This document shows positions 12,235-19,385 of a DNA stretch of 64,000 bases, in pieces (within the stretch, counting starts at the first letter, position 1; every line of letters starts with the position of its first letter). This DNA comes from Candidatus Sulfotelmatobacter sp. (GTDB taxonomy: Bacteria > Acidobacteriota > Terriglobia > Terriglobales > Acidobacteriaceae). The notes under the pieces were generated by a model, which was given only the letters and a program-made list of their open reading frames with translations, did not search any database and had not been told where the DNA came from. The stretch lies in assembly GCA_030041415.1 (NCBI GenBank), contig JASHNX010000094.1:1-64000 (forward strand). Direction: 5' to 3'. The translations under genes were made by a program, and so were the position numbers.

Positions 12235-13893
12235 TTGTACGATCTTCCGGTGCACCCACTCGCGCAGCGCGTGCTCGACCACATCCGCCGGAACGAACTT
12301 CTACTGGCCGGCAATCGCGTCGGCGCGGCGGTTTCCGGTGGAATTGATTCGGTGGCGCTGTTGCGGCTCTTGCTTGAATTGCGGGGCGAACTCGGCATTG
12401 TCCTTTCTATTGTTCATTTCAATCACAAGCTGCGGGGGGCGGAGTCGGATGGGGATCAGGAGTTCGTCGCTTCTCTCGCCCGCGATCACGGATTGGAATT
12501 TTGTTGTGGTGGCGGGGATGCGGCCGAGCTTGCCGCCGAAGAACATTCGGGGATCGAAGCCGCGGGGCGGGAATTGCGGTATGAATTTTTTCGGACGCTA
12601 TTGGGAGCGGGCGAGGCAAAATCCCCATTTCTCCCAGAACAGGGGAGAAATGGGGCACTCGCGGCTGCAGGAGTTGCGCCACCCAAAGGCGTTCTGAACA
12701 AGATCGCGACGGGGCACACGCTCGACGACCAGGCCGAAACTGTGCTGATGCGAGTGATTCGCGGCACGGGGTCTCGAGGGTTGGGAGGAATTCATCCGCG
12801 CATCGTACTTGAGGATGAGGAGGGTGAAGCCCCCGGCGAAATCATTCGTCCTCTGCTCGGGGCTCGTCGACACGAACTGCAACAGTACCTGAGTGATCTC
12901 CAACAACCCTGGCGAGAAGACGCGACCAATTCCGATTCCAAGTTTACCCGCAACCGCGTGCGCAAGCTGCTGATGCCGCTGCTAGAGCGCGAGTTCAATC
13001 CATCCATCGCCGAGAATCTTGGCGAGTTGGCCGAGATTGCTCGCGACGAGGAAGACTATTGGGAAAACGAAGTTTCCGGCTGGCTGGGGACCGTGGTCCA
13101 GTGGTCACTTCCCGAGTGGGCACGGGGGTTGGGATATGCAGACGCGCCTGCGCTGGTGCAAATTGCACCCTCCAAGACAGACTCCGGCTTTCAACCCCAG
13201 GTTTCTGAATTAAGCGAACGAATCGAGCAGGCTCGACATGCTATTGCGAATGCTTCTTTGAGCCGGCCATGGCTACTGACAGAGCCGAAAGCGGTGCAGA
13301 GAAGGGTTATCAAGGCGATCGGCGAGCAAGCGGGAATTTCCCTAGAGTTTAAGCATGTGGAAGAAATCCTGCGGTTCGCGACCGAAGACGGTACGGGCAG
13401 AGAGCTGTCGCTACCCGGCGGTTGGAAGATCGTGCGTGAGCCGGAAGCCATGGTTTTCGTTACGCCTGATTTGCGGCGGCTGGAGCCTTTGGGCGATTAC
13501 GAGTATGTCCTGGGAGTTCCCGGACGGGTCTTTGTGCCGGAACTCGGAGTAGCAGTCGAAGCGTTGCGCATCTCTCCAGATTTGGAGAGCCCGGAGTATA
13601 ATCCGCAACAACTTCTGGACGCGGAACTCGTACCCAGACGTCTGACGCTGCGAAACTGGCGCGCGGGCGATCGATACTGGCCGTCGCACAGTAAGTCGCC
13701 CAAGAAGGTTAAGGAACTCTTGCATGAAAAGCATATTTCGCAGCCGCAGCGGAAGCTCTGGCCAGTGATCGCCGCTGCGGATGAGATCGTTTGGGTGCGA
13801 GACTTGGCGGTTCCGGCAAAGTTTGCCTGGCAGCGCGCGGGTGAGGCGGTGTTGATCCGTGAGATTTCGCGCAACGAATACGAGACAATCTAG
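12235..13893 (+). CDS. tilS: tRNA(Ile)-lysidine synthase
   Basis: Modifies the wobble cytidine of the AUA-reading tRNA-Ile to lysidine. The N-terminal PP-loop ATPase domain has SGGIDSVALL at 34-43 and the DDQAETVLMRVIRG segment; the middle and C-terminal parts match the long form of the family with RAGDRYWP and VKELLHEKHI. At 552 residues it is longer than most homologues. Part of the excess is an in-frame insert between EFFRTLLGAG and LNKIATGHTLDD that carries a 13-bp palindrome. The start is TTG at 12235; no good ribosome site is visible. It is the first gene of tilS-hpt-ftsH. Confidence 0.93.
   Translation: MYDLPVHPLAQRVLDHIRRNELLLAGNRVGAAVSGGIDSVALLRLLLELRGELGIVLSIVHFNHKLRGAESDGDQEFVASLARDHGLEFCCGGGDAAELAAEEHSGIEAAGRELRYEFFRTLLGAGEAKSPFLPEQGRNGALAAAGVAPPKGVLNKIATGHTLDDQAETVLMRVIRGTGSRGLGGIHPRIVLEDEEGEAPGEIIRPLLGARRHELQQYLSDLQQPWREDATNSDSKFTRNRVRKLLMPLLEREFNPSIAENLGELAEIARDEEDYWENEVSGWLGTVVQWSLPEWARGLGYADAPALVQIAPSKTDSGFQPQVSELSERIEQARHAIANASLSRPWLLTEPKAVQRRVIKAIGEQAGISLEFKHVEEILRFATEDGTGRELSLPGGWKIVREPEAMVFVTPDLRRLEPLGDYEYVLGVPGRVFVPELGVAVEALRISPDLESPEYNPQQLLDAELVPRRLTLRNWRAGDRYWPSHSKSPKKVKELLHEKHISQPQRKLWPVIAAADEIVWVRDLAVPAKFAWQRAGEAVLIREISRNEYETI
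12623..12655. repeat. Palindromic insert inside tilS
   Basis: CCCCATTTCTCCC at 12623-12635 pairs perfectly with GGGAGAAATGGGG at 12643-12655 across a seven-base loop. It lies within an in-frame segment of tilS that has no counterpart in the usual PP-loop ATPase, between the helix ending in LLGAG and the conserved LNKIATGHT. This looks like a mobile palindromic unit tolerated in a surface loop. Confidence 0.7.
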
Positions 13894-13940: not shown

Positions 13941-14486
13941 ATGAATACGAGAATCGAGCCACGACAGGTTATTTCGGCCGAGCAGATTCAGAAGCGGGTC
14001 AAGGAACTGGCCCGGCATATTTCGGACGATTATCAGGGGCAGACGGTTCAGGCGCTGGCCGTTCTCGAGAATGCTTTCATGTTCATGGCCGACCTGGTAC
14101 GCGCTTTGGAAATACCGGTTATCTGCCAATTCATAAAACCCCGGTACCGCAAACAGCAGGACAATTCGTCGGCCGAGGTGATGGAAATTTTCTTCAGCCA
14201 CGAACCGGATATCCGTGGCCAGCATATTCTGCTGGTCGAGGGACTGGTGCATTCGGGAGTGACTAGCGAATTTCTAATGAATGATCTCCGAGCGAGGGGC
14301 GCGGCGTCGGTAAAGCTGGTGACCCTGCTCGACCGCCAGTCGGCGCGCAGGGTTGCTTTACAGCCCGATTATTTCGGCTTTTTGGTGGATGAGGCTTACC
14401 TGGTTGGTTACGGTTTAGGGGCATCCGAGCAAACCAATCGCAACATTCCCTATCTGGTAGCGAGTCCGGTCCCCGTGATGACCTAA
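13941..14486 (+). CDS. hpt: Hypoxanthine phosphoribosyltransferase homologue, probably catalytically impaired
   Basis: By fold and position (between tilS and ftsH) this 181-residue protein is HPRT, the purine salvage enzyme. However, key sites are changed. The first loop, normally LKG, is LEN at 42-44. The PRPP loop, normally VEDIIDTG-like, reads VEGLVHSG at 99-106, so the second acid and the catalytic aspartate are G101 and H104. The YGS flap region is replaced by RYRKQQ, and the VGYGLD metal-binding aspartate is G160. Conserved structural parts remain (FMFMADLVRAL, DEAYLVGYGLG, NRNIPYLV). I infer a pseudoenzyme kept for a structural or regulatory role; a changed substrate is the alternative. 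Its ATG lies 47 bases after tilS. Confidence 0.8.
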   Translation: MNTRIEPRQVISAEQIQKRVKELARHISDDYQGQTVQALAVLENAFMFMADLVRALEIPVICQFIKPRYRKQQDNSSAEVMEIFFSHEPDIRGQHILLVEGLVHSGVTSEFLMNDLRARGAASVKLVTLLDRQSARRVALQPDYFGFLVDEAYLVGYGLGASEQTNRNIPYLVASPVPVMT

Positions 14487-14640
14487 GTTATACGAAGAAG
14501 ATCGCACGTTTTTCCCCTGAAAAAGGTAGAATAAAGATCTTGGAATTTCCCCATCGAATTTGGCCGCAAGGCATCTAATTTTAGTGTGGACGGTCGGTGC
14601 GGGTTTGTATTCGTGAACGCCGATCGGTTCGGGAGCATTC

Positions 14641-16551
14641 TTGGTGAATTCGACAGTCAAAACCGTGGTCTTTTGGGTGGTCATCGGCCTTTCCGCTCTG
14701 CTTTTGTGGACCGTGATTCAGCAGGGTCGTGGCGGACAAAAGGATAAAGAAGTCAACTTCTCGCAGTTCATGTCTGATGTGAGCGACGGGAACGTGCACG
14801 AGGTGACGCTGGATGGCCAGCAGGTGCACGGGAAGTTGCGCGACGGCAACTCGTTCCATAGTACCGTGCCGATGAATTATCCGGACATGTACAAGACGCT
14901 TACCGATAAGGGAGTGTCGGTAAATATCAAGGACGTGAATAGCGGAAGCTGGTCGTTGCAGCTTTTGGGCACGTGGGCTCCGCTGATTCTGCTGGGCGCA
15001 TTGTGGTTCTTCATGATCAGGCAGATGCAGACCGGCGGTAATAAAGCTTTGTCTTTTGGCAAGAGCCGGGCGCGGCTGCTTTCCATGCAGCAGAAAAAAG
15101 TCACGTTCAAAGATGTGGCGGGAGTCGAAGAGGCCAAGGAAGAGCTGCGCGAAATTATCGAATTCCTGCGCGAGGCGCAAAAGTTCCAGAAGTTGGGCGG
15201 GAGAATTCCCAAAGGCGTGCTTCTGGTTGGACCTCCGGGAACCGGTAAAACCCTTTTGGCTCGCGCCGTGGCCGGCGAGGCCAACGTGCCTTTCTTCTCG
15301 ATTTCTGGCTCGGATTTTGTCGAGATGTTTGTTGGTGTAGGCGCTAGCCGCGTTCGCGATCTTTTCGAGCAGGGCAAGAAGAACGCGCCTTGCATCATCT
15401 TTATCGATGAAATCGACGCGGTTGGACGGCATCGTGGCGCGGGTCTCGGTGGCGGTCACGATGAGCGCGAGCAGACCCTGAATCAGTTGCTGGTCGAGAT
15501 GGACGGGTTTGAGTCCAACGAAGGCGTCATTCTGATGGCGGCGACCAATCGGCCGGATGTGCTTGATCCTGCGTTGCTGCGACCCGGGCGATTCGACCGG
15601 CGAGTTGTAGTGAGCCGACCCGACGTTCGCGGAAGGGAAGAGATTCTGCGGGTGCATACCCGCAAGATTCCACTGGCCGAAGATGTTGATCTGTCTGTGC
15701 TGGCTCGCGGAACACCAGGATTCTCGGGCGCCGATCTCGCCAATATGGTCAACGAAGCCGCGTTGGCCGCGGCGCGCCAAAACCGCAAAGCCGTGCTGAT
15801 GTACGACTTCGAGGTGGCCAAAGATAAAGTTCTGATGGGCGTGGAACGCAAGTCGCTGATTCTTTCCGAGCAGGAGAAGAAAGTCACGGCGTATCACGAA
15901 GCTGGACACGCGCTGGTCGCGGCTAAGTTGCCGGGCTCCGATCCGGTACATAAGGTGACAATTATTCCACGGGGCATGGCGCTGGGTGTAACCATGCAGC
16001 TGCCGATCGATGACCGGCATAATTACACCCGCGAATATCTGAAGACGGATCTGGCGATTCTGATGGGCGGACGCCTGGCCGAGGAAATTTTCCTTAACCA
16101 GATGAGCACGGGTGCCGGAAACGACATTGAGCGCGCCACCGAAATGGCACGGAAAATGGTGTGCGAGTGGGGTATGAGCGATCTGGGCCCGCTCACTTTC
16201 GGCAAGAAAGAAGAGCAGATCTTCCTGGGTCGCGAGATCAGCCAGCACCGCGATTACAGTGAAGATACGGCAATCAAGATCGATGCCGAAGTACGGAAAC
16301 TTGTGAGCGAGGGGTACGATACGGCCAGGAGCATTCTCGAGAGTAACCGTGACGTGCTGCAAAAGATTGCAGCGTCCTTGCTGGAGCGGGAAGTGCTCGA
16401 CGCTTCCGAAGTGATGATGCTGGTCGAAGGCAAGGAACTGCCTCCGATGAAGTCTCCTTCGAAGCCGGATGAGGGCGTGCAACAAGTGCTGAAGCCAGAG
16501 CCGGGACGGCCCGGAATTGCGAAGGGCGGGGAAAGCCCGGCGCGAGCGTAA
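14641..16551 (+). CDS. ftsH: ATP-dependent zinc metalloprotease FtsH
   Basis: Inner-membrane AAA+ protease of 636 residues that degrades misassembled membrane proteins and regulators. Two transmembrane helices flank a periplasmic domain (about residues 5-25 and 105-125). Walker A is GPPGTGKT, Walker [13 protein letters not shown], the second region of homology RPGRFDRRV, and the zinc site HEAGHALVA. The C-terminal tail ends in a low-complexity KPEPGRPG stretch. The start is TTG at 14641 or GTG at 14644, both a few bases after GGGAGC. A hairpin terminator follows at 16611. Third gene of tilS-hpt-ftsH, with a 154-base gap that may carry its own promoter. Confidence 0.97.
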
Positions 16552-18335: not shown

Positions 18336-19385
18336 TCAAGCTATCACTGCGATCAGCCGTTTCGTGCGAGGCACGACTTCGCCAATCTGCGATGCAGGAA
18401 TCCGCGCCGACTGAAGAGCGGCGAGGAGTTTCTCCGCGTCTTTGGATGCCAGCGAAATTAGCAGGCCCCCAGCCGTCTGAGGATCGAAAAGCAGCCGCTT
18501 GATCTCGTCCGAAATTGGCTCTTCGTAGGCAACCACGCATTCGGCAAAATCACGATTGTTATTTAGTCCTCCTGGGATATATCCGGCACGTACGCATTCC
18601 ACGGCGCCCGGAAGCAGGTCAATCTTGCTCGTGCTGAGGCGCAAGGAGACATCGGAAGCGAGCGACATTTCTCGGGCGTGGCCGATGAGGCCGAAACCCG
18701 TGACGTCAGTCATGGCATGAACCCGCAGATTCTGCCTCTCAAGTATCTCCGCCGCCTGCTTGTTGAGAGTGGTCATTGAACGTACTGCAGCATCGATCCA
18801 TATCGGTTCGGCGCTGCCCTTTTTTATCGCGGTTGAGATCACTCCCGTGCCCAGCGCCTTGGTAAGAATGAGAGCGTCGCCCGGTTTCGCTCCGGCATTG
18901 GTGAGAACTTTTTTCGGATTTACCACTCCGGTAACGGAGTAGCCGAATTTGGTTTCCTCATCGCGAATACTGTGACCGCCGATGACGGTACACCCTGCCT
19001 CGATCATCTTTGACAACCCACCGGCAAGAATGCGCTCGAGCATTTCGAGATCGGCCTTATCGGGAAAGCAGACCAGTGCGAGCGCGGTGACCGGCTTTCC
19101 GCCCATGGCGTAAACATCACTCAACGCATTCGTGGCGGCGATCTGGCCGAACGTGAAAGGATCATCGACGATTGGCGTGAAGAAGTCGACCGTTTGCACC
19201 AGCGCCTGCTCCGGCGCGATTTGATACACTCCGGCGTCGTCGGCGTGGTCGAAGCCGACCAGAACGTTCGGATCATGTTGCCGGGCTAATTTCCCAAGCA
19301 CCTTGTCCAGCGCCGCTGGACTCAGCTTGGAAGCTCAACCCGCAGCTTTCACCGACTCGGTAAGGCGGAATGGCTTATCGGGCAT
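18336..19385 (-). CDS. selD: Selenide, water dikinase (SelD), itself a selenoprotein with in-frame TGA
   Basis: Makes selenophosphate from selenide and ATP, the selenium donor for selenocysteine and selenouridine. An uninterrupted frame starts only at a GTG (19301), which would lack the active site. Reading on upstream, the frame continues through a single TGA at 19335-19337 to an ATG at 19385. The added residues read ESVKAAG-U-ASKLSPAALDK, so TGA is residue 17, the position of the catalytic Cys/Sec, three before the essential Lys20. The rest has FDHADDAGVY, VDFFTPIVDDP, GGHSIRDEE and the glycine-rich AIRS fold; total 349 residues. A second in-frame ATG lies at 19415. A SECIS-like hairpin follows the TGA. 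selA, selB and selC are not in this window. Confidence 0.93.
19294..19330 (-). promoter_or_regulatory. SECIS-like hairpin for selenocysteine insertion in selD
   Basis: Read on the minus strand, the element begins five bases after the TGA: CCAAGC, a TGA bulge, GTCCAGC, loop GGC, GCTGGAC, a five-base AAGGT bulge, then GCTTGG. Both stems (6 and 7 bp) pair perfectly. The distance from TGA to apical loop (21-23 bases) and a G-bearing small loop fit bacterial SECIS elements, which recruit SelB. The pairing also lies within the coding frame, as expected in bacteria. Confidence 0.8.

Follow-up and report, generated by a model that had tools for sequence, protein, structure and literature searches.

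The DNA analysed here (the window, a stretch of 64,000 nucleotides from a Candidatus Sulfotelmatobacter sp.) contains an HPRT-like gene with an altered active site, hereafter HPRTd, which is flanked on the same strand by tilS directly upstream and by ftsH directly downstream (Table 1). Elsewhere in the window, a selD frame reads MPDKPFRLTESVKAAG-TGA-ASKLSP...; because its in-frame TGA stands at the usual Sec/Cys site, this gene probably encodes a selenocysteine-containing SelD.

Table 1. Coordinates of the genes, protein motifs and DNA elements discussed in the text (positions in the window)
Feature	Position	Strand	Remarks
tilS	12235..13893	+	Start uncertain; intact PP-loop (SGGIDS); with TilS_C domain
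HPRTd	13941..14486	+	HPRT-like gene; ATG start, ORF of 181 aa
Loop I, LEN, residues 42-44	14064..14072	+	Canonical L-K/R/N-G
Loop II region, residues 64-78, FIKPRYRKQQDNSSA	14130..14174	+	SSYG flexible loop lost
PRPP motif, V-E-G-L-V-H-S-G-V-T, residues 99-108	14235..14264	+	D100->G, D103->H; E and SG.T kept
LDRQSARR, residues 130-137	14328..14351	+	Purine-contact Lys (K131) = Arg; extra basic residues
VGYGLG, residues 155-160	14403..14420	+	Mg-site Asp (D159) = Gly
R167 (= Arg165 of B. subtilis HPRT)	14439..14441	+	Kept; 53/53 in the HPRTd family
Palindrome, GTGAC-N4-GTCAC	14479-14490		Overlap with the stop codon of HPRTd (window's genus)
GCATCTAA element in ftsH leader	14571..14578	+	GC[A/G]TCTAA; present with or without HPRTd
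ftsH	14644..16551	+	GTG start likely
selD	18336-19385	-	In-frame TGA

Pfam assigned HPRTd to the phosphoribosyltransferase (PRTase) family, with PF00156 (residues 14-150) as the only domain, and its top match in the PDB was the HGPRT of Thermus (3acb). By sequence it belongs with the HPRTs: it matched the NCBIfam model for HGPRTase (TIGR01203) with an E-value of 6e-38, although its 130.2 bits lie below the equivalog cut-off of 150 bits; against the NCBIfam PyrR model it scored only 22.7 bits (cut-off 138). An AlphaFold2 model built from close homologues only reached pLDDT 68 and was superseded by a model from 62 sequences (pLDDT 86.9, pTM 0.82), which superposed on solved HPRTs with TM 0.8-0.86. 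The HPRT fold is thus predicted to be intact, in line with a preliminary description of this DNA, which had regarded the remaining fold residues as well preserved.

The same description had listed three changed motifs (LEN, VEGLVHSG and VGYGLG), all of which were found in HPRTd, but it missed the replacement of loop II and the change of the purine-contact Lys to Arg (D100, D103, K131, D159 and R165 follow the numbering of B. subtilis HPRT). In loop I, N44 was present in 53/53 and E43 in 52/53 members of the HPRTd family, whereas canonical HPRTs have G in 9/9. KPRYRKQQD stands where HPRTs have the SSYG flexible loop II, so that the S-[ST]-Y pattern is absent, with K66, P67 and Y69 each in 53/53 members, and the segment LDRQSARR was equally uniform (R132, Q133, R136 and R137, each 53/53). 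The PRPP motif VEGLVHSG departs from the canonical V-E-D-I-I-D-[ST]-G and lacks the E-D-x-x-D-[ST]-G pattern. D159, the Mg-site residue of B. subtilis HPRT, corresponds to G160 in 52/53 members of the family, compared to D in 9/9 canonical HPRTs, for which the pattern is VGYG[LI]D. The functions of E99, D100, D103-T107, K131 and R165 have been described for the Bacillus enzyme (PMC6783271). Since the same altered motifs occur in about 80 genome records, chance or assembly error can be excluded, and judging from the residues lost, HPRTd is almost certainly not a working HPRT.

HPRTd was found in 22 of the 24 genomes of the same genus (76-94% identity; completeness of the two genomes without it, 87% and 76%). 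The altered motifs are nearly invariant over the approximately 80 Terriglobales records, which confirms that the losses are common to acidobacterial orthologues, a point that the preliminary description had raised, and the reading frame is open in nearly all loci. The median pairwise dN/dS of HPRTd (0.067) was close to that of FtsH (0.069) and of the intact HPRT (0.057), with TilS at 0.18; purifying selection on HPRTd is as strong as on FtsH and the intact HPRT. Very probably, the gene is retained for a role other than that of an HPRT. A search for viral relatives of the altered form yielded none.

Conservation extends to the pocket itself. Among 53 HPRTd family members, mean entropy at the pocket positions was 0.22 bits vs 0.76 elsewhere (9/20000 random position sets were as low), and E43, N44, K66, P67, Y69, G101, H104, R132, Q133 and R137 were fixed or nearly fixed, although non-canonical. 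The acidic Mg/ribose groups are gone, basic groups have been added and the phosphate-binding features are kept; with the SG.T loop, Arg165 and, at the purine site, Lys/Arg all conserved, the alignment shows a pocket that has been rebuilt, not abandoned. The pocket of Bacillus HPRT holds PRPP or (p)ppGpp, and the residues of the HPRTd pocket are those that contact (p)ppGpp there (PMC6783271), except that D100, one of these contacts, is lost, which counts against the ligand reading. Ligand binding, suggested by a pocket that is both strongly conserved and remodelled, had not been foreseen in the preliminary description; by this conservation HPRTd probably binds a ligand.

Eight PRTase-family genes were identified in the source genome. 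One of them lies on contig C235 and encodes an HPRT with all motifs intact (LKGS, SSYG, VEDILDTG, LDKPSRR, VGYGLDYAERYRNLP); it is the second hpt that had been proposed to be looked for, and the same intact copy was likewise found in 20/20 relatives of the same genus that were read. In six genomes (G103, G200, G041, G044, G105 and G133), the locus copy occurs without an intact HPRT. Because G050 and G084, which belong to the same families as genomes with the locus copy, have no HPRT gene at all, the locus copy need not serve salvage in those families. Among the genomes sampled, the PRPP motif was kept at the locus in only four (G331, G321, G377 and G311; loci L202, L203, L205 and L207), in which the sole HPRT lies between tilS and ftsH. 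Their proteins contain VEDILDTG and GYGLD and lack the SSYG loop; despite this unusual loop II, they are possibly active HPRTs. An HPRT of the enzyme type in the tilS-ftsH slot looks like the state from which the lineage set out, the direction of change being our inference from an unrooted tree.

To follow the locus through the class and the phylum, motifs and neighbours were read locus by locus, because no bit-score threshold separates the two forms, altered and canonical, in distant genomes. In a tree of 130 sequences, HPRT-like genes adjoining tilS/ftsH were separated from HPRTs elsewhere by 2 label changes (0/500 shuffles were as low); with the relocated L208 and L211 assigned by descent, 1 label change remained among 110 sequences, and the branch of the locus lineage had a support of 86, which is not decisive. 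When 52 sequences of the locus lineage were compared with 58 other HPRTs, D100 was kept in 8/52 vs 58/58, D103 in 12/52 vs 58/58 and D159 in 9/52 vs 58/58, and the loop-II Tyr was present in 0/52 vs 56/58 (Phe in the remaining two). D103 and D159 each underwent at least 3 losses or gains within the locus lineage. Retained in this lineage were the phosphate-loop Gly (G105, 52/52), Lys/Arg131 (52/52), Thr107 (44/52) and Arg165 (45/52). Many branches of this old lineage have lost residues aligned with those that bind ribose/Mg, catalyse the reaction or close the active site, and such losses happened repeatedly. The best explanation is that in most branches the HPRT homologues at tilS-hpt-ftsH throughout Acidobacteriota are no longer purine phosphoribosyltransferases. 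The locus HPRTs of Acidobacteriota and Bacillota (the latter represented by two genes that are presumably located at tilS-ftsH) were split in the best free tree; holding them together gave an lnL 11 higher (p-AU 0.72), and a grouping of the two is allowed by the tree.

The order tilS-HPRTd-ftsH was observed nearly wherever the contig permits, in about 80 genome records. At three loci (L067, L069 and L077), the altered HPRT adjoins tilS and no ftsH was detected downstream. In many Terriglobia, ftsH comes directly after tilS, without an intervening HPRT gene, and several complete genomes (Acidobacteriaceae-type, f6, f9, f13 and f4) lack HPRTd with tilS left adjoining ftsH. This clean loss indicates that, in general, ftsH can be expressed without HPRTd. 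In f42 genomes, the gene for the altered HPRT was relocated away from the locus. Both patterns argue against an essential role of HPRTd in a TilS-ftsH circuit. The relocated gene of G324 (L211/L277) reads LEDSF, VGGILDTG and GYGLG; a cluster of oligopeptide ABC transporter genes lies 5' of it and, after a gap of about 9 bp, a lysophospholipid-acyltransferase-like (DUF374-type) gene follows (both named by eye).

The TilS_C domain was present in 42/47 loci with HPRTd vs 8/18 without (Fisher p 0.00035, kinship ignored). The co-occurrence is suggestive only and has clear exceptions (f6, f9, f13 and f4, in which TilS_C is kept despite the absence of HPRTd). TilS without TilS_C was seen in most of the f1 genomes that lack HPRTd and in f42 genomes with a moved HPRTd (L259, L261-L267, L275 and L276).

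Upstream of ftsH, a comparison of genomes with and without HPRTd revealed no HPRTd-specific DNA element. Two candidates were rejected. The GCATCTAA element reads GC[G/A]TCTAA in ftsH leaders of HPRTd-less genomes as well, and some of its distant matches fell inside the HPRTd coding frame; in the ftsH leaders of many Terriglobia, it resembles the -10 element of an ECF sigma factor. The palindrome GTGAC-N4-GTCAC, considered as an HPRTd operator, is confined to the L039-L117 clade, where it lies about 160 bp before ftsH, and is absent from other genomes with HPRTd. Its position is conserved, and where the centre has changed the arms compensate (e.g., GTGACCTGGGTCAC in L060); it resembles a site of the CRP/FNR family. 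Of the earlier view of this protein as a regulator, the loss of the catalytic set, the intact second hpt, the sharing of the losses by orthologues, the retention of the gene under selection and the Bacillus precedent hold, whereas regulatory action by HPRTd is a proposal.

We propose that HPRTd would bind, in the absence of Mg and without transferring a phosphoribosyl group, an anionic, nucleotide-like ligand such as (p)ppGpp or a purine nucleotide, and that it would partner the neighbouring TilS in a ligand-dependent manner; HPRTd-TilS would then tune TilS activity and/or ftsH expression, like the catalytically competent TilS-HprT of Bacillus. A role in a TilS-ftsH circuit fits with the shared gene order and with a dead HPRT having been kept in this slot. 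By analogy, the chances that HPRTd acts through TilS and/or ftsH are about even. A ligand-binding HPRT pseudoenzyme that acts in this way is the best explanation overall, at about even odds; its regulatory step is one that we infer and consider plausible. That HPRTd is specifically a DNA-binding activator of ftsH seems unlikely. More broadly, and only as a tentative suggestion, HPRT-derived pseudoenzymes might form a phylum-wide class of Mg-independent nucleotide (perhaps (p)ppGpp) sensors that would link purine/stringent status to tRNA-Ile2 lysidine and FtsH, the moonlighting of Bacillus HprT having been split off via a second gene for the enzyme.

Other explanations account for part of these data. 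The loss of catalytic residues could mark a decaying pseudogene, and a recent pseudogene was the outcome against which the preliminary description had set its own reading; the conservation of HPRTd (dN/dS, open frame, invariant motifs) refutes decay and leaves it a negligible probability. HPRTd could still be a weak or specialised HPRT, as the sole-copy genomes with VEDILDTG and GYGLD at the locus might suggest, and in a study of the T. cruzi HPRT (PDB 1i0l-1i14) single substitutions of the invariant Asp reportedly can leave some activity. In the window protein, however, five sites were lost together, and salvage is not required in G050 and G084, which makes a residual HPRT highly improbable. 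HPRTs form dimers or tetramers (PMC6783271), and the intact copy coexists with HPRTd throughout the same-genus genomes read, so that a non-catalytic subunit pairing with and regulating the intact HPRT is conceivable; given the six genomes in which the locus copy has no intact HPRT to pair with, such a role is unlikely in general, and we regard it as improbable.

Two further readings deserve somewhat more weight. In one of them, HPRTd is an enzyme of new chemistry, its pocket (E43, N44, K66, Y69, H104, R132, Q133 and R137) having been rebuilt for another nucleotide-like substrate: the changed residues are fixed within Terriglobales, not drifting, and the His that stands in for the former general base could serve as base or nucleophile. 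Across the wider locus lineage, that position (H104 in the window) varies (H/Q/N/E/Y/S/G/D), unlike a conserved catalytic residue, and the neighbours of HPRTd are tilS and ftsH instead of a metabolic operon; new chemistry therefore appears rather unlikely. In the other, HPRTd is a TilS or RNA-binding cofactor that serves tRNA modification only, with ftsH as a bystander. This would agree with the adjacency to tilS in nearly all loci, the association with TilS_C (kinship ignored) and the basic residues gained in the pocket; TilS, however, evolves much faster than HPRTd, and four families have TilS_C but no HPRTd, and we consider this reading doubtful.

The gene order with hpt between tilS and ftsH recurs in bacteria. 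In Acidobacteriota, the enzyme has repeatedly been removed from this slot and the protein kept, which makes a non-enzymatic role separable from phenotypes of purine salvage; genomes that have HPRTd, lack it or carry it at another place provide natural controls. A search of the open literature for an inactive HPRT at a tilS-ftsH locus found nothing.

Canonical bacterial HPRTs (TIGR01203; 3acb, 1r3u and 6d9q) share fold, length, phosphate loop and Arg165 with HPRTd and differ in loop I, loop II, D100, D103, K131 and D159; the score of HPRTd falls short of the family cut-off. Bacillus PurR carries an N-terminal DNA-binding domain, whereas Pfam found no separate DNA-binding domain in HPRTd. PurR is a transcription regulator with a PRTase fold, the pocket of which senses PRPP/(p)ppGpp (PMC8789054); it uses this fold without catalysis, as HPRTd would in our reading. 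In Trypanosoma brucei, an APRT isoform without activity (PMC8836349) is likewise an inactive PRTase paralogue retained alongside an active one, although it is a eukaryotic APRT without a link to tilS/ftsH. The closest precedent, already invoked in the preliminary description, is the TilS-HprT complex of B. subtilis, which is described in PMC8152036, citing Lin 2014, as an activator of ftsH. It shares with the HPRTd locus the order tilS-hpt-ftsH, the HPRT fold and TilS as the proposed partner; Bacillus HprT, however, is an active purine-salvage enzyme, whereas HPRTd lacks the catalytic set and HPRT is supplied by another gene. Non-catalytic PRTase homologues and the Bacillus TilS-HprT were thus known already, and a conserved family of HPRT pseudoenzymes at tilS-ftsH is added here.
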